Source of the DNA: Paraburkholderia sp. Tr-20389
Lineage (GTDB): Bacteria > Pseudomonadota > Gammaproteobacteria > Burkholderiales > Burkholderiaceae
NCBI RefSeq assembly: GCF_017104565.1
Contig: NZ_JAAGPD010000057.1
Coordinates: forward strand, 1 to 64,000
DNA length: 64,000 nt
Direction: 5' to 3'
The notes beneath the pieces are model-generated. The model was not told where the DNA came from and did no database searches. It worked only from the letters and a program-made list of their open reading frames with translations. Both the position numbers and the translations under genes were made by a program. Position 1 is the first letter of the stretch; every line of letters starts with the position of its first letter. This document shows positions 53,335-64,000 of this stretch, in pieces.

Positions 53335-54228
53335 ATGACAACAGCAGGCTTCATCGGACTCGGCATCATGGGCAAGCCCATGGCCGCCAATCTTCGCAAG
53401 AACGGCGTCGAACTCACGGCCTTCACGCGCAGCGGCGTGCCGGACGAACTGACGCAAGCCGGCGTGACCACGAGCACCAGTCCCGCCGACGTCGCGGCAA
53501 AAGCGGATGTGATTTTCATCATGGTGCCGGACACGCCCGACGTCGAACGCGTGCTGTTCGGCGAGAACGGCGTCGCGAGCAAGCTGCGTCAAGGACAGAT
53601 CGTCGTCGACATGAGCTCGATCTCGCCCATCGCCACGCGTGACTTCGCGGCCCGTGTGCGCGAGAAAGGCGCGGACTATCTCGACGCGCCCGTCTCGGGC
53701 GGCGAAGTCGGCGCGAAAGCCGCTTCGCTGACGATCATGGTCGGCGGCGCGCAAGCGACGTTCGACAAGGTCAAGCCGATGTTCGACATGATGGGCAAGA
53801 ACGTGTCGCTGATCGGCGAAGTCGGCGCGGGCCAGATCTGCAAGGTCGCGAATCAGGTGATCGTCGCGGCGACGATCGAAGCAGTCGGCGAAGCGCTGCT
53901 GCTCGCATCGAAAGCCGGCGTCGACGCGGAGAAAGTGCGCAAGGCGCTGATGGGCGGCTTCGCTTCGTCGCGCATCCTCGAAGTGCACGGCGAACGCATG
54001 ACGAAGCGCACGTTCGATCCCGGCTTCCGCATCGAACTGCATCAGAAGGACCTGAATCTCGCCCTGTCGACGGCGCAGTCGCTCGGCGTTTCGCTGCCGA
54101 ACACCGCCACCTGCCAGGCGCTCTTCAACGCGTGTGCAGCGCATGGCGGCAAGGCGTGGGATCACTCGGGCATGGTTCGCGCGCTCGAATATCTCGCCGA
54201 CCACGAGATTGGACAGCAGCAGAAATGA
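53335..54228 (+). CDS. garR: 2-hydroxy-3-oxopropionate (tartronate semialdehyde) reductase
   Basis: The 297-residue beta-hydroxyacid dehydrogenase has the NAD(P)-binding GFIGLGIMGKPMAANL, substrate-binding DAPVSGGEVGA and the catalytic lysine in QICKVANQ. It reduces tartronate semialdehyde to D-glycerate. GGGAG precedes the ATG. Position after garL supports this role over 3-hydroxyisobutyrate dehydrogenase, a close relative. Confidence 0.93.
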   Translation: MTTAGFIGLGIMGKPMAANLRKNGVELTAFTRSGVPDELTQAGVTTSTSPADVAAKADVIFIMVPDTPDVERVLFGENGVASKLRQGQIVVDMSSISPIATRDFAARVREKGADYLDAPVSGGEVGAKAASLTIMVGGAQATFDKVKPMFDMMGKNVSLIGEVGAGQICKVANQVIVAATIEAVGEALLLASKAGVDAEKVRKALMGGFASSRILEVHGERMTKRTFDPGFRIELHQKDLNLALSTAQSLGVSLPNTATCQALFNACAAHGGKAWDHSGMVRALEYLADHEIGQQQK

Positions 54229-54265
54229 TGTTGAAGTTGAAGCGCATTTCGAACGTACACGCATC

Positions 54266-55345
54266 ATGAGCCAGTCCGGCGCAGCATCGTTCTTCGCGCT
54301 CGTCTCGAACGCGGTGGATGGCGATATCGCCGTCTTTCGCGTCGACGGCGCGACGGGCGGCATTGAACGCCTCGCGCGCTATCCGGCCGGCGATACCGTG
54401 ATGCCGATGGCGCTCTCGTCGGATGGCCGCGTGCTGCATGCCGCCACACGCGGCGCGAAGCGCAGCATCGTCACGTACGCGGTCGATCCGGGCACGGGCG
54501 GCCTCGCTCACGTGCAGACCGCGTCGATCGAAGCGAGCCTCGCTTATGTATCGCTGACACCGTCGAATGACTGGCTGCTCGGCGCATCGTATGGCGAGAA
54601 TTCCGTGAGCCTCTATCGCGTGAAGTCGCTCGCGAACGGCGAAGGCGAGCCGCGACAGGTAATCGACGGCTTCGTGCATGCGCACGCGGTCATCGCATCG
54701 CGGGATGGGCGCTTCGCATATGCGACGTCGCTCGGTTCCGATACCGTGTTCTGTTTTGCGATCGTCCGCGACACGAGCGATGCAAGGCTCGAACTCGTGC
54801 AGAAGATGCACGTGGAAGCGGGCTTCGGTCCGCGTCACTTACGTTTGTCGCCCGACGAAAAAACGCTGTACGTATCGAGCGAATTTCGCGCCACGGTCGC
54901 CGTGTTTTCCCGCGACGTTGAAACCGGCACGCTGACAGCGCGCAGCGTAGCGCCGCGTGCCCCTGCACTCGCGCATCTGAACGACGGCTGTCTGCGCACG
55001 GCGCATCTCGATCCGGTGACGGCTGCGTCGCTGGTGTGGGGCGCCGACTTGCAGATCACGCCGGATGGACGCTTCATCTACGTCGCCGAACGCACGTCGA
55101 GCCGCCTGATCGCTTACCGCGTGACCAGCGAAGGCTCGCTCGAATACGCAGGCTACACCGACACGGAAGCGCAACCGCGCGGCTTCAGGATCGACCCTTC
55201 GGGCCGCTTTCTGATCGCGTGCGGCGAAAAGTCGACGCACGTAGCCGTTTATGCGATCGATGCCGGCTCGGGCGCGCTCTCGGCCGTTTCGCGCTGCGAG
55301 GGCGGCCTCGGCGCGAACTGGGTCGACATCGTCCCACAAACGTAG
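54266..55345 (+). CDS. Lactonase-type beta-propeller protein
   Basis: The 359-residue cytoplasmic protein belongs to the 6-phosphogluconolactonase (Pgl/YbhE) seven-bladed propeller family, with [20 protein letters not shown] and [21 protein letters not shown]. In this cluster a sugar-acid lactone such as glucaro-lactone is a more likely substrate than 6-phosphogluconolactone; this is inference. The start is the ATG at 54266, 37 bp after garR; no strong ribosome binding site is visible. Confidence 0.85.
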
Positions 55346-55437
55346 CCGCTCACATCGCGCGGCACACCGAACTCTTTTTGTCGATTTTCACAGGCCCACG
55401 CAGGCCATTTTTGGGAACTCACCCAGGACCGATTCTC

Positions 55438-56787
55438 ATGTCTACGATTGCATCTTCGACCCAAGGCGCACCGACCGTCACCGAATTGCGCGTCGTTCCC
55501 GTCGCCGGCCGCGACAGCATGCTGATGAACCTCAGCGGCGCGCACGGCCCGTTCTTTACGCGCAACATCGTGATACTGCGTGACAGTTCCGGTCACACCG
55601 GCGTCGGCGAAGTGCCGGGCGGCGAGAACATCCGCAAGACCATCGACGATGCGCGTCCGTTCGTCGTCGGTCAGTCGATCGGCAATCTGCAGGCCGTGCT
55701 GAATCAGGTGCGCAAGCAATTCGCCGATCGCGATTCAGGCGGCCGCGGCTTGCAGACCTTCGACCTGCGCACGACGATCCACGCCGTGACCGCCCTCGAA
55801 GCCGCACTGCTCGATCTGCTCGGCCAACATCTGGGCGTGCCCGTTGCGGCGCTGCTCGGCGAAGGCCAGCAACGCGACGAAGTCGAAATGCTGGGCTATC
55901 TGTTCTATATCGGCGACCGCAAGAAAACCGATCTGCCGTATGCGAGCGGCGCCGAAGGCCGCGACGACTGGGAACGCGTGCGCACCGAAGAAGCGATGAC
56001 GCCCGAAACCGTCGTGCGTCTGGCGGAAGCCGCGCAAGCGCGCTACGGCTTCAACGACTTCAAGCTGAAGGGCGGCGTGCTGGCGGGCGACGCGGAAATC
56101 GAAGCCGTGACGGCACTCGCCGAACGCTTTCCGGAAGCGCGCGTGACGCTCGATCCGAACGGCGCGTGGTCGCTCGCCGAAGCGATCCGCCTGTGCCGCG
56201 ACCAGCACCATGTGCTCGCCTATGCGGAAGATCCGTGCGGCGCGGAGAACGGTTACTCGGGCCGCGAAGTGATGGCCGAATTCCGCCGCGCGACGGGCCT
56301 GCCGACGGCCACCAACATGATCGCCACCGACTGGCGCCAGATGGGCCACGCCATCCAGTTGCAATCCGTCGACATTCCGCTCGCCGATCCGCACTTCTGG
56401 ACGATGCAGGGCTCCGTGCGCGTCGCACAGATGTGCAACGACTGGGGGCTCACGTGGGGCTCGCACTCGAACAATCACTTCGACGTTTCGCTCGCGATGT
56501 TCACGCATGTCGCGGCGGCTGCGCCCGGCAAGATCACGGCGATCGACACGCACTGGATCTGGCAGGACGGCCAGTATCTGACGCGCGATCCGCTGCAGAT
56601 CGTCGGCGGCAAGGTGAAGGTGCCGGCCAAGCCGGGTCTGGGTGTCGAACTCGACATGGACGCACTCGAGAAAGCGCACGCGCTGTATCAGCAGCACGGC
56701 CTTGGCGCGCGCGACGATGGCGTCGCGATGCAGTACCTGATCCCGAACTGGAAGTTCGACAACAAGCGCCCTTGCCTCGTGCGCTAA
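55438..56787 (+). CDS. gudD: D-glucarate dehydratase
   Basis: The 449-residue enolase-superfamily enzyme removes water from D-glucarate to give 5-keto-4-deoxyglucarate. It shows the [17 protein letters not shown] catalytic lysine motif, DPNGAWSL and [20 protein letters not shown] metal ligands, [10 protein letters not shown] and the base histidine region [13 protein letters not shown]. The ATG at 55438 follows AGGA; an open frame extending upstream lies within the lactonase gene. It is followed by kdgD. Confidence 0.95.
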
Positions 56788-56872
56788 ACCATCGAGCGCT
56801 AACCACTACACCCGAACAACGCGGCCTGCGTGGCCGCTGAACATTGACTGACATTCAACAGCGAACTGAATC

Positions 56873-57790
56873 ATGACCACGCCACAAGAACTCAAAGCGA
56901 TCGTATCCGAAGGCCTTCTGTCGTTCCCCGTCACCGACTTCGACAGCAACGGCAACTTCCGCGCCGACACGTATGCAGCACGTCTCGAATGGCTCGCGCC
57001 GTATGGCGCGACCGCGCTGTTCGCGGCGGGCGGCACGGGTGAATTCTTCTCGCTGACCAGGTCCGACTACACGAACGTGATCCGCACGGCGACGGAAACC
57101 TGCAAGGGCAAGGTGCCGATTCTCGCGGGCGCGGGCGGCCCGACGCGCGTCGCGATCGAATATGCGCAGGAAGCCGAGCGCAACGGCGCGCATGGCGTTC
57201 TGCTGATGCCGCATTATTTGACGGAAGCATCGCAGGAAGGTATCGCTGCGCACGCCGAGGAAGTTTGCAAGGCGGTTCCGAACATGGGCGTGATCATCTA
57301 CAACCGCGCGAATTCGAAGCTCAACGCCGACTCGCTGGAACGTCTCGCCGACAAGTGTCCGAACCTGATCGGCTTCAAGGATGGCGTAGGCGACATCGAG
57401 AGTATGGTGACGATTCGCCGTCGTATGGGCGATCGGTTCTCGTATCTCGGTGGTCTGCCGACGGCTGAAGTCTATGCCGCTGCGTATAAGGCACTGGGCG
57501 TGCCCGTTTATTCGTCGGCTGTGTTCAACTTCATTCCTAAGACGGCAATGGAGTTTTATCGTGCTATTGCTGCCGATGATCGTGCTACGACCGATCGGTT
57601 GATCGATGAGTTCTTCTTGCCTTATCTCGCGATTCGGAATCGTCGTGCGGGTTATGCCGTGAGTATCGTTAAGGCTGGCGCCAAGCTCGTCGGGCACGAT
57701 GCGGGGCCTGTGCGGGCCCCGTTGACCGATCTTACCGAGGATGAGCTTGCGCAGTTGGATGTGTTGATCAAGAAGCTTGGCGCGCAGTAA
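56873..57790 (+). CDS. kdgD: 5-dehydro-4-deoxyglucarate dehydratase
   Basis: The 305-residue DapA-family lyase converts 5-keto-4-deoxyglucarate to 2-oxoglutarate semialdehyde, water and CO2. It has [12 protein letters not shown], the tyrosine motif VIIYNRANS and the Schiff-base lysine in [10 protein letters not shown]. The product goes to the dehydrogenase at 50693. From about 57400 on the codons shift to T-ending forms (cgt, ggt, gct, gat, gtt), unlike the first half and the neighbours, just before the repeat element. A strong terminator follows. Confidence 0.95.
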
Positions 57791-57880: not shown

Positions 57881-57940
57881 TGCGGTGGCATCCGGTCTTT
57901 TGCGCTGGCATCCGGTCTTTTGCGCTGGCATCCGCGTTTT
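57881..57940. repeat. Three tandem 20-bp repeats
   Basis: TGCG(G/C)TGGCATCCGGTCTTT is present three times head to tail, the last unit diverging at its end (CCGCGTTTT). One unit-like sequence (CTGGCATCCGCG) also borders copy 1 of the composite repeat near 3631. It seems to be the edge of that element, amplified in this copy. Confidence 0.85.
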
Positions 57941-57955
57941 CATGTCGGTATTCAT

Positions 57956-58543
57956 GCGTTGCCCCTGTGCGGGGCGGCACCTACTTTTCTTTGCAGCGGC
58001 AAAGAAAAGTAGGCAAAAGAAAGCCGCTAACACCGCCAATCCTTCTTCCTGCCTGCGGGCCCCCTACGGGTCCCGCACTCCACGCGGCAACGCATTGTTT
58101 TCCGCCCGTTGCCAGCGCCTCGAACAGGCGCATCACCCACTCCAATCTCTCGTACCCAGCCAGCGACAGCGAATGGTTTGCGCCGCCCAGGTGGCAAACT
58201 GTGTGTAGGTTATCGCACCGCACGCGTCGGCGCTCCTACGACACCGATCCTGCTTTTCAGTCCGAAGTGGTTCATTTACATCGCGACAGCCTACACACAG
58301 TTTGCCACCTGGGCGGCCCTGGACTCCATGGAAACGCAGTCCCTGACGCGGAAGCGTGAAGTGGGTGATGCGCATCTAAGGGCGCTGGCAACGAGCATGG
58401 ACCATGCTCGTTGCCGCGCGAAGGACGGGGACGTGGGGGCTCCTGGGCAATTACACGGGCTGGCGGTGTGAGCGGCTTTCTTTTGCCTACTTTTCTTTGC
58501 CGCTGCAAAGAAAAGTAGGTGCCGCCCCGCACAGGGGCAACGC
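57956..58543. repeat. Composite inverted-repeat element, copy 2
   Basis: Outer arms of 82 bp at 57956-58037 and 58462-58543 and inner arms of 28 bp at 58182-58209 and 58290-58317 repeat the plan of copy 1 at 3662-4271. The segment between outer-left and inner-left, and the centre (with TTTTCAGTCCGAAG), match the reverse complement of the corresponding parts of copy 1, so the copies are in opposite orientation. The 58318-58461 side differs more. No transposase or convincing gene is present. Confidence 0.85.
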
Positions 58544-58664
58544 ATGAAGTAAGACGGCAAATCGCGGATGCCAGCGAAGAGACCCAAAACCCAAACCAAC
58601 CTCAAACCTAAAATAGATATCAGAAATAGTTGGTTTGAACGCAAACCTGAGTTCACTAGACTCA

Positions 58665-58691
58665 GCTCAATCTTGTTATAACAAGTTGAGC
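58665..58691. promoter_or_regulatory. Long near-palindrome abutting the regulator start
   Basis: CTTGTTATAACAAG at 58672-58685 is a perfect 14-bp palindrome. GCTCAA before it and TTGAGC after it extend the symmetry, with one extra T. It ends 1 bp before the start codon at 58693, so a bound protein would block both transcription and ribosome access. Autoregulation by the HutC-type regulator is likely. Confidence 0.65.
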
Positions 58692-58692
58692 C

Positions 58693-59481
58693 ATGTCGAA
58701 ACCGGCGAGCCTCGTCCCCGTCACGTCAGTGCCCCTGTATGCGCAGATCAAAGACGCGCTGCGAGCAAAAATCCTGAATGGCATCTACGCGCCGCATTCG
58801 CAGATGCCATCCGAACACGAACTCTGCGCGATGTTCGGCGTGAGCCGCATCACCGTCCGCCAGGCGCTCGGCGACCTGCAAAAAGAAGGTCTGCTGTTCA
58901 AGCTGCACGGAAAAGGCACGTTCGTCTCGAAACCCAAGGCATTCCAGAACGTCAGCTCCCTTCAGGGCTTCGCCGAAGCCATGTCGTCGATGGGCTATGA
59001 AATCGTCAACCAGTTACGCAGCTTCCGCGTCGTCGAAGCCGATCGCAACGTTGCCGCGCGCCTCGGACTCGAAGAAGGCGCACCCGTCACCGAAATCCAT
59101 CGCGTGCGACTGCTCAACCGCGAGCCCGTATCGCTCGAACTGACGTGGCTGCCCGAAGCAATCGGCACACGTCTCGCGAATGCCGACCTCGTCACGCGCG
59201 ACATCTTCCTGATCCTCGAAAACGACTGCGGCGTGCCGCTCGGTCACGCGGATGTCGCCATCGACGCCATCCTCGCCGACGACGAAATCGTCGATGCCCT
59301 GCGCGTGGAAGAAGGCAGCCCCGTGCTGCGGATCGATCGTCTCACCCACGATGCAACAGGCGCACCCATCGATTACGAGCACCTGTACTTTCGCGGCGAT
59401 GCGTTCCAGTACCGCTTCCGGATCGACCGCGAAAAAGCAGGCAATAGCACGAAGAACAAGGCTACAAGGAAAACACGATGA
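58693..59481 (+). CDS. HutC/UTRA-type GntR regulator
   Basis: The 262-residue regulator has a winged helix with MPSEHELCAMFGVSRITVRQALGDLQKEGLL at about 37-67 and a UTRA effector domain from about 90 (FAEAMSSMGYEIVNQLRSF, IDYEHLYFRGDAFQYRFRI). The lysine/arginine-rich tail is short. Its stop overlaps the flavoprotein start as ATGA, so it belongs to that operon and probably represses it until an effector related to the transported compound binds. No clear ribosome binding site is seen because the palindrome occupies that place. Confidence 0.9.
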   Translation: MSKPASLVPVTSVPLYAQIKDALRAKILNGIYAPHSQMPSEHELCAMFGVSRITVRQALGDLQKEGLLFKLHGKGTFVSKPKAFQNVSSLQGFAEAMSSMGYEIVNQLRSFRVVEADRNVAARLGLEEGAPVTEIHRVRLLNREPVSLELTWLPEAIGTRLANADLVTRDIFLILENDCGVPLGHADVAIDAILADDEIVDALRVEEGSPVLRIDRLTHDATGAPIDYEHLYFRGDAFQYRFRIDREKAGNSTKNKATRKTR

Positions 59482-61244
59482 ACACTCACGTACTCGAATA
59501 CGACATCGTCGTGGTCGGCGGCGGAACGGCGGGACCGATGGCGGCCGTCAAGGCCAAGGAAAGCAATCCGGGTCTCAAGGTCCTGCTGCTCGAGAAGGCC
59601 AACGTCAAACGCAGCGGCGCGATCTCGATGGGCATGGACGGCCTCAACAATGCCGTCATTCCCGGTCACGCAACACCCGAGCAGTACACCCGCGAAATCA
59701 CCATCGCGAACGACGGCATCGTCGATCAGGCCGCCGTCTACGCCTACGCGAAGCACAGCTTCAAGACGATCGAAGAACTCGATCGCTGGGGCGTGAAGTT
59801 CGAAAAGGACGGCACCGGCGACTACGCGGTGAAGAAAGTGCACCACATGGGCTCGTATGTGCTGCCAATGCCCGAAGGACACGACATCAAGAAAGTACTG
59901 TACCGGCAGCTGAAACGCGCGCGCATCGCGATCACCAATCGCATCGTCGCAACACGGCTGCTCACCGACGCGAACGGCAACGTCAACGGCGTGATGGGAT
60001 TCGATTGCCGCACGGCGGATTTCTACATCGTGCGCGCAAAAGCGGTGATTCTGTCGTGCGGCGCAGCGGGACGGCTCGGCCTGCCCTCGTCCGGCTATCT
60101 GATGGGTACCTACGAAAATCCGACCAACGCCGGCGATGGCTACGCAATGGCTTATCACGCGGGCGCAGCGCTCGCGAATCTCGAATGCTTCCAGATCAAC
60201 CCGTTGATCAAGGACTACAACGGGCCCGCTTGCGCCTACGTGACAGGACCGCTGGGCGGCTTCACGGCAAACGGCAAAGGCGAACGCTTCATCGAATGCG
60301 ATTACTGGAGCGGCCAGATGATGTGGGAGTTCTATCAGGAACTGCAGAGCGGCAACGGCCCCGTGTTCCTGAAGCTCGATCACCTCGCCGAAGAAACCAT
60401 CCAGACCATCGAGCAGATCCTGCATACGAACGAACGCCCGAGCCGTGGACGTTTCCACGCAGGACGCGGCACCGACTACCGCCATCAGATGGTCGAGATG
60501 CACATCTCCGAGATTGGCTTTTGCAGCGGGCACAGTGCTTCGGGCGTGTACGTCAACGAACGGGCCGAAACGACGGTCGGTGGGCTGTATGCGGCGGGCG
60601 ACATGGCGGCCGTGCCGCACAACTACATGCTCGGCGCGTTCACGTATGGCTGGTTCGCCGGACAGAATGCTGCTGCCTTCGTTGCGGACCGCGAACTTGC
60701 GCCGCTCGATCAGCAGCAGATCGATGCCGAACGCGCGCGCATCTATGCGCCGCTCGAACGCGAGCATGGTCTCGCGCCTGCACAGGTCGAATACAAGCTG
60801 CGCCGCATGGTCAACGATTATCTTCAGCCGCCCAAGGTCACCCGCAAGATGGAAATCGGCCTGCAGCGCTTCGAGGAAATTACCGACGACATCGGCTCGA
60901 TCAAGGCGACGCATCCACATGAATTGATGCGCGCAGCCGAAGTGCGCGCTATCCGCGATTGCGCCGAAATGGCCGCACGCGCGTCGCTGTTCCGCACCGA
61001 AAGCCGCTGGGGGCTGTATCACCATCGGGTCGACTATCCACAGCGCAACGACGCCGACTGGTTCTGCCATACGCATCTGCGCAAGGATGCGGCGGGCCGC
61101 ATGGTCAGCGAGAAGCGCGCCGTCGAGCCGTACATCGTGCCGCTCGACGAACGCGAGCGCGGCTCGTACAGCAATCTGCGCATACACGACGCGCGGCCCG
61201 ATTCGCATGCGAACGCTCACGCGCTCGCCGACCTGACCGCCTGA
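59478..61244 (+). CDS. FAD flavoprotein, AprA/fumarate-reductase-like
   Basis: The 588-residue flavoprotein has the FAD-binding DIVVVGGGTAGPMAAVKA (G14-G16, G19). It continues with LLLEKANVKRSGAISMGMDG and GLYAAGDMAAVPHNYMLGAFTYGWFAG, closest in style to the alpha subunit of adenylylsulfate reductase among fumarate-reductase-like proteins. Together with the ferredoxin encoded 14 bp downstream it forms an AprAB-like pair. The rest of a sulfate-reduction or sulfur-oxidation pathway is absent, so adenylylsulfate is not a safe substrate call. Coupling to an SsuABC-like importer points to oxidation or reduction of an imported small sulfur- or nitrogen-containing compound. Confidence 0.85.
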   Translation: MNTHVLEYDIVVVGGGTAGPMAAVKAKESNPGLKVLLLEKANVKRSGAISMGMDGLNNAVIPGHATPEQYTREITIANDGIVDQAAVYAYAKHSFKTIEELDRWGVKFEKDGTGDYAVKKVHHMGSYVLPMPEGHDIKKVLYRQLKRARIAITNRIVATRLLTDANGNVNGVMGFDCRTADFYIVRAKAVILSCGAAGRLGLPSSGYLMGTYENPTNAGDGYAMAYHAGAALANLECFQINPLIKDYNGPACAYVTGPLGGFTANGKGERFIECDYWSGQMMWEFYQELQSGNGPVFLKLDHLAEETIQTIEQILHTNERPSRGRFHAGRGTDYRHQMVEMHISEIGFCSGHSASGVYVNERAETTVGGLYAAGDMAAVPHNYMLGAFTYGWFAGQNAAAFVADRELAPLDQQQIDAERARIYAPLEREHGLAPAQVEYKLRRMVNDYLQPPKVTRKMEIGLQRFEEITDDIGSIKATHPHELMRAAEVRAIRDCAEMAARASLFRTESRWGLYHHRVDYPQRNDADWFCHTHLRKDAAGRMVSEKRAVEPYIVPLDERERGSYSNLRIHDARPDSHANAHALADLTA

Positions 61245-61258
61245 CAGGAGTACCTGCG

Positions 61259-61504
61259 ATGTCCTACACCCCACACGAAATCCTTCATCGAAGCAGCGCG
61301 CCCGTCACGATCGACGAAAGCAAATGCATCGCCGACAAAGGCTGCACCGTATGCGTCGACGTGTGCCCGCTCGATCTGCTCGCGATCGACGTCAGCAAAG
61401 GCAAGGCCTACATGCAGTTCGACGAATGCTGGTACTGCATGCCATGCGAACAGGATTGCCCGACGGGCGCGGTGAAAGTCGATATTCCCTATCTGCTGCG
61501 CTAG
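61259..61504 (+). CDS. AprB-like ferredoxin with two [4Fe-4S] clusters
   Basis: The 81-residue protein has two cluster motifs, C23-x5-C29-x2-C32-x3-C36-P and C57-x2-C60-x2-C63-x3-C67-P. The second reads ECWYCMPCEQDCPTGAV, very like AprB. It would pass electrons to or from the preceding flavoprotein. It is shorter than AprB of sulfate reducers, lacking the C-terminal tail. AGGAG lies 8 bp before the ATG at 61259. Confidence 0.9.
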   Translation: MSYTPHEILHRSSAPVTIDESKCIADKGCTVCVDVCPLDLLAIDVSKGKAYMQFDECWYCMPCEQDCPTGAVKVDIPYLLR

Positions 61505-61568
61505 CGTCATCCAAAGGCCGCGCGTTCAGCACGGCCACCGCCACGATACCAACGAAAGAGCCGACATC

Positions 61569-63008
61569 ATGACCATTCGCTACGCTCTACCCAAACTGAT
61601 TGGCGCCACCATCGCGCCCCTCGCATTTGCGCTTGCGGCAGGCACGGCCCACGCCGAAACGATCCGCGTCGCCATCGGCACGCAGGATACGACGATCAAC
61701 TGCGCGACAGGCGGCCTGCTGATTCGCGAACTGCATCTGCTCGACAAGTATCTGCCGCACACGGGCAAATACAAGGACGTCACTTACGACGTGCAATGGA
61801 AGGACTTCACGTCCGGCGCGCCGATCACGAACGAGATGGTCGCGGGCAAGCTCGACTTCGGCACGATGGCCGACTTCCCGGGTTCGCTGAACGGCGTGGC
61901 GTTCCAGAAGGCGGGCCGCAAGAGCGTCTTCATCACCGTGCTGTCGGGCAGCGTGGACGGCAGCGGCAATGGCATCGTCGTGCCCGAGAACTCGCCGCTG
62001 CATTCGATCGCCGACCTCAAGGGCAAAACGATCTCCGTGCCGTTCGCGTCGACTTCGCACGGCATGCTGTTGCGTGCAATCAAGGCGCAAGGGTGGAACC
62101 CCGACACCGACGTGAACATCATCACGCAGGCGCCCGAGGTGGCGGGCAGCGCGTTGAAGGCGAACAAGATCGACGCACACGCCGACTTCGTGCCGTTCGC
62201 AGACCTGTTCCCGTATCGCGGCATCGCGCGCAAAATCTACGACGGTGCGCAAAGCCACGCGCCGACCTATCACGGCGCACTCGTTGACGCCGCCTATGCG
62301 CAGAAGTATCCGGAAGTGGTCGTCGCGTATCTGCGCGCCGCCATCGAGGCAAACCAGCTGATCGCGCAAGACCCCGAGAAATACAGCCTGCTGATCGAGA
62401 AGACGACGGGCATCGAAGCGCCCGTCGACTATCTGTACCACGGACCGCTCGGCATCCAGACGCGCGACCTGACATGGAAGCCCGAGTATCGTCAGGCCAC
62501 GGCCACTGCGATTGATACGCTCAAGCTGCTGAAGAAGACCGACGTCGATCTGGACGTGAACACGTTCATCGACGACCGCTATATCCGCGAAGCCTTCAAA
62601 GAGTCCGGCCTCGATTACAACGCCGCATTGAAGAACTATGCGAAGCAGCCGCTCGTCGCCAACGATGCAGTGACGGGCAAGCCGATCCACGATTTCAACG
62701 ATGTCACGCAAGTGTGGCTCGACAGCGAAGCGAAGGTCCGCAATTACGCGTCGCCGGCTGAAGCGTTTGCTGCGCTCGGCAAGATCGAACAATCGGGCGG
62801 CAAGACGCGGGCCGTATTCGTTCATGACCACTCAAGCGGCCTCAAGCTGTTCGCCAACCAGGCGTGGTACGTGAAGGATGCGCATGGCGCGATCACCGCG
62901 TTCCTGTTGAAAGCGAGCGCCGATCGCTACGCGCAACAGGTATCCGGCTCGGTCGTCGAGTACGCCGCCGCGAAAACGGGCGCCGCGCAAGCCGTCGCGG
63001 CGCGCTGA
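61569..63008 (+). CDS. SsuA/NMT1-type binding protein with NosL-like C-terminal extension
   Basis: The 479-residue protein has a signal peptide cleaved after THAHA-type sequence near residue 29. A periplasmic binding domain of about 330 residues of the sulfonate/nitrate/thiamine-precursor class follows. Residues from about 410 to 465 (FVHDHSSGLKLFANQAWYV, then AFLLKASADRYAQQVSG) resemble the copper-chaperone NosL domain. Family members are usually about 320-350 residues, so the extension is notable. The HDH pair could bind a metal. The ligand is unknown. Confidence 0.85.
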   Translation: MTIRYALPKLIGATIAPLAFALAAGTAHAETIRVAIGTQDTTINCATGGLLIRELHLLDKYLPHTGKYKDVTYDVQWKDFTSGAPITNEMVAGKLDFGTMADFPGSLNGVAFQKAGRKSVFITVLSGSVDGSGNGIVVPENSPLHSIADLKGKTISVPFASTSHGMLLRAIKAQGWNPDTDVNIITQAPEVAGSALKANKIDAHADFVPFADLFPYRGIARKIYDGAQSHAPTYHGALVDAAYAQKYPEVVVAYLRAAIEANQLIAQDPEKYSLLIEKTTGIEAPVDYLYHGPLGIQTRDLTWKPEYRQATATAIDTLKLLKKTDVDLDVNTFIDDRYIREAFKESGLDYNAALKNYAKQPLVANDAVTGKPIHDFNDVTQVWLDSEAKVRNYASPAEAFAALGKIEQSGGKTRAVFVHDHSSGLKLFANQAWYVKDAHGAITAFLLKASADRYAQQVSGSVVEYAAAKTGAAQAVAAR

Positions 63009-63045
63009 GCGCGTTTTCTTTTCACGCTACATCGGGAACATGGTC

Positions 63046-63891
63046 ATGGCCGCCATCTTCGATCTTCACGACAGGCACGCATCGCGACGCCGGCGCGCGC
63101 CTCTCTTCACGCCTTCGACGAAGCGTCGCGCATGGCGTGCGGCCTCGCTTGCTGCGTGTGTCGCGCTCTGGCAACTAGCCGTGCACTTCCGGGTGTCGGC
63201 GGGCATCGTCACGTTCGCCAACGTGCCCGCCCCTTCCGATGCGCTGCCCGCGCTGTGGTCGCTGCTGCACTCGCCGAAGCTGCCGATGCATCTGGCCGCA
63301 AGCATCTGGCGCGTGCTGGCAGGCTTCTGCACGGCAGCCGCGGCCGGTGTCGGGTTGGGTCTCGCAATCGGCCGCTATCGTGCCGTCGAAGACACCCTGC
63401 TGCCCGCACTCGAAGTGCTGCGACCGATACCCGCCGTCGCGTGGATACCGCTGGCGATACTGATGTTTCCGTCGTCGGAACTGAGCATGATGTTCATCAC
63501 GTTTATCGGCGCACTGTTTCCGATCCTGCTCAACACCGTGCATGGCGTGGAAGCCGTCGACCCACGCCTCGTCGCGACGGCGCGGAGTCTCGGCACGCGG
63601 CCGCTTGCACTCTATACGGAAGTCGTGCTGCCCGGTGCCGCGCCCGCGATTTTCACGGGCCTCGCAATCGGCATGGGCACCGCCTGGTTCTGCCTCGTGA
63701 CGGCGGAGATGATCGCGGGCCAGTACGGCATCGGTTATTTCACGTGGGAGTCGTACACGTTGCAGAACTACCCGGATATCGTCGTCGGCATGGCGCTGAT
63801 CGGCGCGCTCGGCATGGGCAGCAGTGTGCTCGTCAAGCGCCTGGGCATTGCGCTCACGCCGTGGTATCGACTGCAGGAGACACGCCGATGA
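63046..63891 (+). CDS. ABC transporter permease, SsuC-like
   Basis: The 281-residue permease has six hydrophobic segments and the EAA-type loop DPRLVATARSLGTRPLALYTEVVLPGAAPAI of the sulfonate/nitrate/taurine class. The ATG at 63046 is preferred to the one at 63040 because GGGA is 8 bp from the former and only 2 bp from the latter. The stop overlaps the next start as ATGA. Confidence 0.92.
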   Translation: MAAIFDLHDRHASRRRRAPLFTPSTKRRAWRAASLAACVALWQLAVHFRVSAGIVTFANVPAPSDALPALWSLLHSPKLPMHLAASIWRVLAGFCTAAAAGVGLGLAIGRYRAVEDTLLPALEVLRPIPAVAWIPLAILMFPSSELSMMFITFIGALFPILLNTVHGVEAVDPRLVATARSLGTRPLALYTEVVLPGAAPAIFTGLAIGMGTAWFCLVTAEMIAGQYGIGYFTWESYTLQNYPDIVVGMALIGALGMGSSVLVKRLGIALTPWYRLQETRR

Positions 63892-64000
63892 GCAGCGTCG
63901 CCGTCGAAGCCGTCAGCAAAGCCATCACTGCACCCGCGCGCGTGAACGTGCGCGCGCTGTCCGTCGAAGTCGGGCCGCCGCATGCACGCCTCGCCACCCT
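63888..64000 (+). CDS. Probable ABC transporter ATPase (partial)
   Basis: The first 37 codons are present and begin MSSVAVEAVSKAI; the Walker motifs lie beyond the window. Coupling to the permease by ATGA overlap and the missing ATPase of this importer make an SsuB-like subunit the best guess. Confidence 0.55.
   Translation, partial: MSSVAVEAVSKAITAPARVNVRALSVEVGPPHARLAT

Follow-up and report, generated by a model that had tools for sequence, protein, structure and literature searches.

An AprAB-like flavoprotein/ferredoxin operon with a sulfonate-class importer in Paraburkholderia sp. Tr-20389, a candidate system for organosulfur acquisition

The closest described relatives of the operon reported here are the adenylylsulfate (APS) reductase AprAB and the 3'-phosphoadenylylsulfate (PAPS) reductase of Methanothermococcus thermolithotrophicus (structure 8a8o), in which a flavin adenine dinucleotide (FAD) subunit of the fumarate-reductase family is paired with a tryptophan-bearing ferredoxin that carries two clusters. 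The same pairing is encoded near the end of a 64,000-nt stretch of DNA from Paraburkholderia sp. Tr-20389 (contig NZ_JAAGPD010000057.1, positions 1 to 64,000 of the forward strand; in the following, the window), where it is linked to an importer of the ATP-binding cassette (ABC) type and to a gene for a HEAT-repeat protein. This linkage and replaced residues at the flavin distinguish the operon from both AprAB and PAPS reductase, and it differs from AprAB further in the length of its ferredoxin (81 residues compared with 150–166 in AprB) and in scores below the cut-offs of the AprA and AprB families. Another cluster of similar make-up is asfRABC of Pseudomonas putida S-313 and Cupriavidus metallidurans, which according to the available excerpts of two papers (PMC4267179; PMC2864759) combines a reductase, a ferredoxin, a sulfonate-type binding protein, an ABC transporter and a regulator, the latter belonging to the LysR family there and to the GntR family here; in the excerpted text of PMC4267179, AsfAB is regarded as the electron supply of an oxygenase. 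With SsuABC and TauABC the operon shares the binding-protein fold and the subunit make-up of the importer, but its binding protein has a C-terminal extension of ~130 residues and scores under the SsuA and TauA family cut-offs, and neither SsuD nor TauD is encoded in the operon.

Related gene sets are also found in other bacteria. In the Actinomycetota, PRK13800 (NF010374) comprises the same flavoprotein and a HEAT-repeat part, which in contrast to the separate genes here are fused; in Tsukamurella this is a single chain of 893 amino acids, and genes for a GntR regulator, a ferredoxin and an ABC importer adjoin it. A 2025 study of acidophile plasmids (PMC12375680) describes, in the portions available, a cargo module of ferredoxin, APS reductase and GntR together with a NirT/TauT sulfonate transporter in 'Fervidacidithiobacillus caldus', and predicts organosulfonate assimilation for this cargo. 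This module seems to correspond to the locus on plasmid pTcM1, which has a GntR regulator, a flavoprotein of the same NCBIfam family (NF006131), a ferredoxin and the HEAT gene, but differs in the presence of an extra FdxA and a large Pyr_redox_2 protein and in its ABC genes, which are located farther downstream on the opposite strand.

The operon consists of eight genes on the plus strand and extends from position 58693 to contig position 66041, past the end of the window (the contig runs to 69790). Its genes code for a GntR/UTRA regulator, the flavoprotein, a ferredoxin with two [4Fe-4S] clusters, an SsuA/TauA-like binding protein, a permease, an ATPase, a HEAT-repeat protein and a GBBH-like_N protein, in this order. 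The first-pass annotation had described the part within the window as an AprAB-like enzyme with an SsuABC-like importer and a HutC-type regulator; the genes it claimed are open and stand in the order it gave, and the family score of the flavoprotein as well as the recurrence of the order among 80 named loci (see below) exceed what is expected by chance.

The flavoprotein (59478..61244, plus strand, 588 amino acids) matches family NF006131 (PRK08275) over residues 1–571 with 1137.7 bits (cut-off 587). The label of this family, 'fumarate reductase/succinate dehydrogenase flavoprotein subunit', is generic and uninformative, and the Pfam domains of the protein are Succ_DH_flav_C and FAD_binding_2. 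Its closest solved relatives are the alpha subunit of the Methanothermococcus PAPS reductase (8a8o_A, E 2e-60) and AprA (2fja, E 9.4e-46), with succinate dehydrogenases ranking behind them (best E 8e-24). Phylogenetic comparison with AprA, which had been proposed as a check on the annotation, grouped the NF006131 family with AprA and PAPS reductase and split them from four fumarate-reductase-type proteins with a support of 100/100 in a tree of 46 rows, whose long branches leave unsettled whether the family forms a single clade beside AprA. Placement of the flavoprotein within a characterised dehydrogenase family was not observed. Its scores against the AprA profile TIGR02061 (184.0 bits, cut-off 641.75) and against NF005331 (296.8 bits, cut-off 557) remained below threshold. 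A structure model of the flavoprotein had a mean predicted local distance difference test score (pLDDT) of 51 and was not used.

The ferredoxin (61259..61504, plus strand, 81 amino acids) contains a Fer4_7 domain and resembles AprB (3gyx_B, E 8.2e-10), scoring 38.1 bits against the AprB profile TIGR02060, whose cut-off is 135.65. Its motif CWxCxxCxxxCP, with a tryptophan adjoining a cluster cysteine, is present in all 114 loci compared. The electron-transfer architecture of AprAB and PAPS reductase, a two-[4Fe-4S] ferredoxin with a tryptophan beside a cluster cysteine, is found here as well; for PAPS reductase the excerpted 8a8o paper proposes the corresponding residue, Trp42, as an electron relay. 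The kinship to 8a8o, AprA and AprB thus bears out the annotation of a two-subunit AprAB-like flavoprotein/ferredoxin pair. The pocket was compared in an alignment of 32 NF006131-family rows and nine AprA rows, with A. fulgidus positions counted on the 2fja chain. N57 and H352 are aligned with an asparagine and a histidine conserved in AprA, and the position of A. fulgidus W234, a tryptophan in the nine AprA rows, is Y212 in all 32 family rows; W234 and the AprA asparagine and histidine are presumably pocket residues. Judged from these alignments, the electron path looks AprAB-like and the substrate pocket distinct.

Further downstream on the plus strand follow the importer genes, coding for the periplasmic binding protein (61569..63008, 479 amino acids), the permease (63040..63891; BPD_transp_1, 77.6 bits) and the ATPase (an open reading frame [ORF] with an ABC_tran match that starts at 63888, is cut by the window end at 64000 and ends at 64691 on the contig). 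The binding protein consists of an SsuA/TauA-type part and the C-terminal extension. It resembles sulfonate binders (SsuA structure 2x26, E 1.1e-18), and a fold search returned SsuA and TauA as top matches; its score against the SsuA profile TIGR01728 was 116.3 bits (cut-off 163.5), and the cut-off of the broad Pfam family NMT1 was reached. The model used for the fold search had a mean pLDDT of 67, and only the substrate-binding protein (SBP) fold was taken from it. The extension is weakly similar to NosL (PF05573, 18.8 bits, Pfam cut-off 24), a match also obtained in six of ten members of the binding-protein family that were scanned (E <= 0.01, best 1.3e-6). A link to copper or nitrous oxide was considered on account of NosL and set aside, as the similarity is weak and under the cut-off in the protein of this operon. 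Plasmid loci that encode a long version of the binding protein (447–503 residues) beside the enzyme or close to it occur in Pseudanabaena, Leptolyngbya, Methylobacterium, Rhizobium, Methylocystis, Tsukamurella, Acinetobacter, Cupriavidus pinatubonensis and Aquabacterium.

Conservation was assessed in 114 loci chosen by their flavoprotein, namely this locus, 80 named loci (the best 80 of 582, of Burkholderia/Pseudomonas type), 20 further genomes and 13 plasmids. The order of regulator, flavoprotein, ferredoxin and HEAT genes recurs in most of the 80 named loci. Across the whole set the ferredoxin gene is present in 114 loci, the regulator gene in 92, the GBBH-like_N gene in 90 and the binding-protein gene (identity >= 38%) in 69. 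HEAT proteins scored >60 bits in 111 loci, the exceptions being a locus at a contig end (L087), one with an annotated, divergent protein (L137) and one with a fusion (L141). The HEAT gene (ORF at 64711–65706, HEAT_2) and the GBBH-like_N (DUF971) gene (ORF at 65703–66041), which lie outside the window on the plus strand, are part of the conserved core. Among 398 genomes of Pseudomonadota, 21 encode the flavoprotein (E <= 1e-100) and 20 the SBP (E <= 1e-60), all of the latter being included in the former. A search of 72,556 plasmid records gave 53 with a flavoprotein match at E <= 1e-60 (48 covering >= 80% of the query), which beyond the Pseudomonadota comprised four cyanobacterial and two actinobacterial records, one actinobacterial record having a size of 11.9 Mb.

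Genes linked to sulfite handling or electron supply adjoin the system in part of these loci. Members of the YeiH family, to which the available part of PMC12880088 chiefly attributes the sulfite resistance of Salmonella, are encoded nearby in 8 of the 114 loci. TauE/SafE is annotated beside the system in Pseudanabaena and Leptolyngbya (cyanobacterial plasmids) and in Aquabacterium, and was checked against Pfam in Pseudanabaena and Aquabacterium. A ferredoxin-NADP reductase gene occurs nearby in 11 loci and FdxA in seven.

The explanation that we favour, if tentatively, is an organosulfur acquisition system by which a sulfonated anion would be imported and sulfite reductively released from it. 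The binding protein, permease and ATPase would take in the anion, and flavoprotein and ferredoxin would form a cytoplasmic complex similar to AprAB and PAPS reductase. Electrons would be transferred from NADPH (reduced nicotinamide adenine dinucleotide phosphate) via a ferredoxin-NADP reductase, whose gene is close by in some relatives, to the ferredoxin and, passing its conserved tryptophan, on to the FAD, which in its reduced state would split the sulfo group from the substrate as sulfite; the sulfite would be assimilated or, when in excess, exported. The HEAT protein may act as partner or scaffold of the flavoprotein. The sequences themselves show gene content and order, family membership, co-occurrence and the conserved operator-like site, whereas substrate and chemistry are inferred. 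The individual parts of this scheme differ in strength. The substrate quite probably contains sulfur, because the kinship of the enzyme, the kinship of the binding protein and the sulfite-handling neighbours all point to it; the earlier suggestion of a perhaps organosulfur compound is supported in so far as this is the likeliest substrate class. The two-cluster ferredoxin and, in some relatives, the ferredoxin-NADP reductase render a reductive direction rather likely. That the bond to sulfur is cleaved directly at the flavin can be proposed only with reservation by analogy to PAPS reductase, for which an attack of N5 on the sulfur of PAPS is put forward in the excerpted 8a8o paper.

Several observations weigh against this organosulfur reading. 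Where A. fulgidus AprA has R265, an arginine in the nine AprA rows and presumably the contact to the sulfo group, all 32 family rows have Leu243, and W206-Y207, the Trp-Tyr pair beside the flavin in the M. thermolithotrophicus PAPS reductase, is invariably replaced by Tyr212-Glu213. Carbon is, moreover, a poor leaving group in C-S cleavage, so that the chemistry would be easier with a sulfate ester or with a sulfonate in activated form; because of this and of the different pocket, the step of which we are least sure is direct cleavage at the flavin. According to the fold search, proteins with the SBP fold bind nitrate, bicarbonate and pyrimidines as well. As to the sulfite-handling neighbours, no YeiH gene was detected near the operon in the 80 named loci, and a tblastn search with two TauE proteins revealed no additional locus among the 114. 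In a control of 11 system-bearing genomes outside the class of this strain, each containing one or two YeiH genes, YeiH was located <= 9 kb from the flavoprotein gene in six, five of which belong to one genus and are not independent. Finally, in 38 of the 80 named loci the ferredoxin gene adjoins the HEAT gene without an importer cassette, and 37 of these 38 genomes have no match to this SBP at E <= 1e-60 anywhere; therefore, the imported compound is not the sole supply of the enzyme. The linkage and the sulfonate class of the importer noted in the first-pass annotation are retained, whereas the importer is not an obligatory part, and it seems that the importer needs the enzyme while the enzyme does not need the importer. 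An ATPase remnant between ferredoxin and HEAT genes in one of the 38 loci (L042, E 4e-6) and a weaker one in L090 hint that the importer may have been lost from these two.

The most serious alternative, which we consider unlikely, is that flavoprotein and ferredoxin merely feed electrons to an oxygenase, for instance SsuD or a TauD-like enzyme, that cleaves the sulfonate with O2, as in the published view of AsfAB. The same kinds of parts are present in the asf cluster as excerpted above, and in C. pinatubonensis (L146, 14269–17716) an annotated acyl-CoA-dehydrogenase-family protein, an NtaA/DmoA-type monooxygenase dependent on flavin mononucleotide and an NrtA/SsuA/CpmA-type binding protein are encoded beside the operon on the opposite strand; this monooxygenase and second binding protein fit a sulfur role and also the oxygenase explanation. 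On the other hand, no oxygenase was prominent among the 45 largest neighbour clusters of the 114 loci, of which few are annotated and beyond which smaller clusters exist, and the best solved relatives of the flavoprotein are themselves catalytic sulfo-group reductases. Homology to AsfA also looks distant. Identity with AsfAB was examined on the megaplasmid of C. metallidurans CH34, where no close relative and only distant flavoproteins were found, the best matching the flavoprotein with 30% over 269 residues. The CH34 candidate for AsfAB, a distant FAD/ferredoxin pair at ~923.4–929.9 kb (L166, 390–6863), lies opposite genes for an SsuABC-like importer and an amidohydrolase-like protein, scored just 56.2 bits against NF006131 and, unlike the operon, had no HEAT or GBBH-like_N gene noticed around it by eye. 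It is plausible that this pair is the AsfAB of CH34; the record has no gene names, and the estimated place of Rmet_4334/5 (CHR2) fits poorly. Another candidate near 794 kb was discarded, as by eye it resembled tricarballylate genes.

We regard it as rather unlikely that the flavoprotein reduces or dehydrogenates an organic anion at a C-C or C-N bond, with the importer carrying that anion and the sulfur link being incidental. The Succ_DH_flav_C and FAD_binding_2 domains would be in line with such a reaction, as would neighbours without a link to sulfur, among them GNAT and amidase genes (Nostoc, Methylocystis), Crp/Fnr-type regulators, and an ammonium transporter with glnK (Aquabacterium). Against it stand the grouping of the flavoprotein with AprA and PAPS reductase, the sulfonate class of the binding protein and the sulfite tolerance or export genes that adjoin the system in several lineages. 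With their GNAT and amidase neighbours, two loci raise the possibility that the substrate is acylated or an amide. In the plasmid of Nostoc edaphicum (L139, 8995–18426), the flavoprotein and ferredoxin genes have between them those for a pair of HAD hydrolases, a methyltransferase, a GNAT protein and a VOC protein, with an additional GNAT and amidase downstream; in Methylocystis (L143), GNAT and amidase genes adjoin the HEAT gene.

Operation in the oxidative direction, with sulfinate or sulfite oxidised at the FAD and electrons leaving via the ferredoxin, is improbable. The reaction of dissimilatory APS reductase is reversible and an FAD-sulfite intermediate has been proposed for this fold (8a8o paper, in the excerpts available), but a ferredoxin with two [4Fe-4S] clusters and the ferredoxin-NADP reductase next to it in some relatives suit reduction better, and the sulfite exporters imply that sulfite is a product. 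A genuine APS or PAPS reductase is, despite the overall homology, very improbable given the AprA and NF005331 scores and the replaced flavin-pocket residues, which for AprAB proper exclude this assignment.

The regulator (58693..59481, plus strand, 262 amino acids) has UTRA (136.2 bits) and GntR (79 bits) domains, both above their cut-offs, and scored 137.4 bits against the HutC profile TIGR02018 (cut-off 220). The earlier designation as HutC-type consequently applies at the superfamily level but not at that of the HutC equivalog. Just 5' of its gene lies the exact palindrome CTTGTTATAACAAG (58672..58685, assigned to no strand), probably the operator for the GntR regulator of the operon itself; the site recurs with <= 2 mismatches in 78 of 92 gntR-bearing loci compared with 1 of 1840 shuffles. 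A wider operator pattern was searched in 19 genomes and gave a single exact copy in 17 and no exact site in two, with zero matches for a reversed control pattern. According to its coordinates, the lone site is positioned ~0.8 kb before the flavoprotein gene in each of the 17 genomes, none of which has a further exact site that could mark a substitute transporter. Control by anaerobiosis of the FNR type was rejected since the neighbouring regulators of the Crp/Fnr family have no clustered pattern of four cysteines, leaving oxygen sensing unsupported. The C-terminal region of a LysR neighbour in Pseudanabaena weakly resembles the binding-protein fold, with a sub-threshold NMT1_2 score of 21.1 bits.

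The gene run and the lone operator-like site would fit one self-regulated operon. Four-base overlaps join regulator and flavoprotein, permease and ATPase, and HEAT and GBBH-like_N genes; the remaining gaps measure 14 to 64 bases. A weak terminator-like hairpin overlapping the end of the binding-protein gene (nine such sites compared with 7.0 in shuffles) argues against full co-transcription, so that expression of the distal genes may be reduced; a sigma-70 scan of the stretch gave zero promoter-like sites. Of the two absences stated in the first-pass annotation, that of sulfite-reduction genes agrees with the sulfite/nitrite reductase domain PF01077, which had no match on this contig, although four ORFs with PF01077 are present elsewhere in the genome; the absence of sulfate-activation genes is a statement of that annotation, no search for ATP sulfurylase having been made. 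In cyanobacterial loci a gene for an Mrp-type Fe-S carrier follows the HEAT gene, and because Mrp occupies this place there, the GBBH-like_N protein is suggested to serve Fe-S assembly, to which both are probably linked. On A. caldus pTcM1 (L135, 10574–14035), the HEAT gene is followed by FdxA and a protein of 1153 amino acids whose sole match is Pyr_redox_2 (residues 372–576); this protein is possibly the electron donor on that plasmid.

Directly upstream of the operon, positions 53335–57790 hold what by the look of the translations is a D-glucarate-type catabolic set, with products resembling by eye 2-hydroxy-3-oxopropionate reductase, lactonase, glucarate dehydratase and 5-keto-4-deoxyglucarate dehydratase. 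Between these genes and the operon there is a 142-nt inverted repeat (arms 57923–58064 and 58435–58576, 86% complementary), and both arms carry a 34-nt palindrome that is almost perfect. With a probe from this repeat (58470–58550), at least 40 near-full-length copies (99–100%) were detected in the genome, as determined from 40 of 258 candidates scored; the repeat is an abundant dispersed palindromic element without an assigned type.

A word-based search of the open-licence literature, from which descriptions under other names could escape, found no experimental work on the NF006131 family. The available parts of a Rhodococcus biodesulfurisation proteome and of a review on Fe-S flavoenzymes contain nothing on it, and those of Paraburkholderia phymatum nodule transcriptomes mention sulfonate transporters with no tie to this operon established. 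Already known are the family itself, listed in NCBIfam under its generic name, and the organosulfonate role predicted for plasmid cargo; the present system combines a putative AprAB-like electron path, a pocket of its own and linkage to the importer with a function so far predicted.

It is conceivable, though we put this forward with some doubt, that the system is a reductase of organosulfonates (or organosulfates) that is driven by NADPH, works without oxygen and, by means of an APS-reductase-type flavin, frees sulfite directly from an organic sulfo group. It would thereby add a third class of substrate, next to APS and PAPS, to this fold and would be distributed among Pseudomonadota, Cyanobacteriota and Actinomycetota, often on plasmids. 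If so, the unassigned 'fumarate reductase/succinate dehydrogenase flavoprotein' annotations in many genomes could be explained, and a conserved, often plasmid-borne reductive route that functions without oxygen would change the genome-based prediction of organosulfur use.

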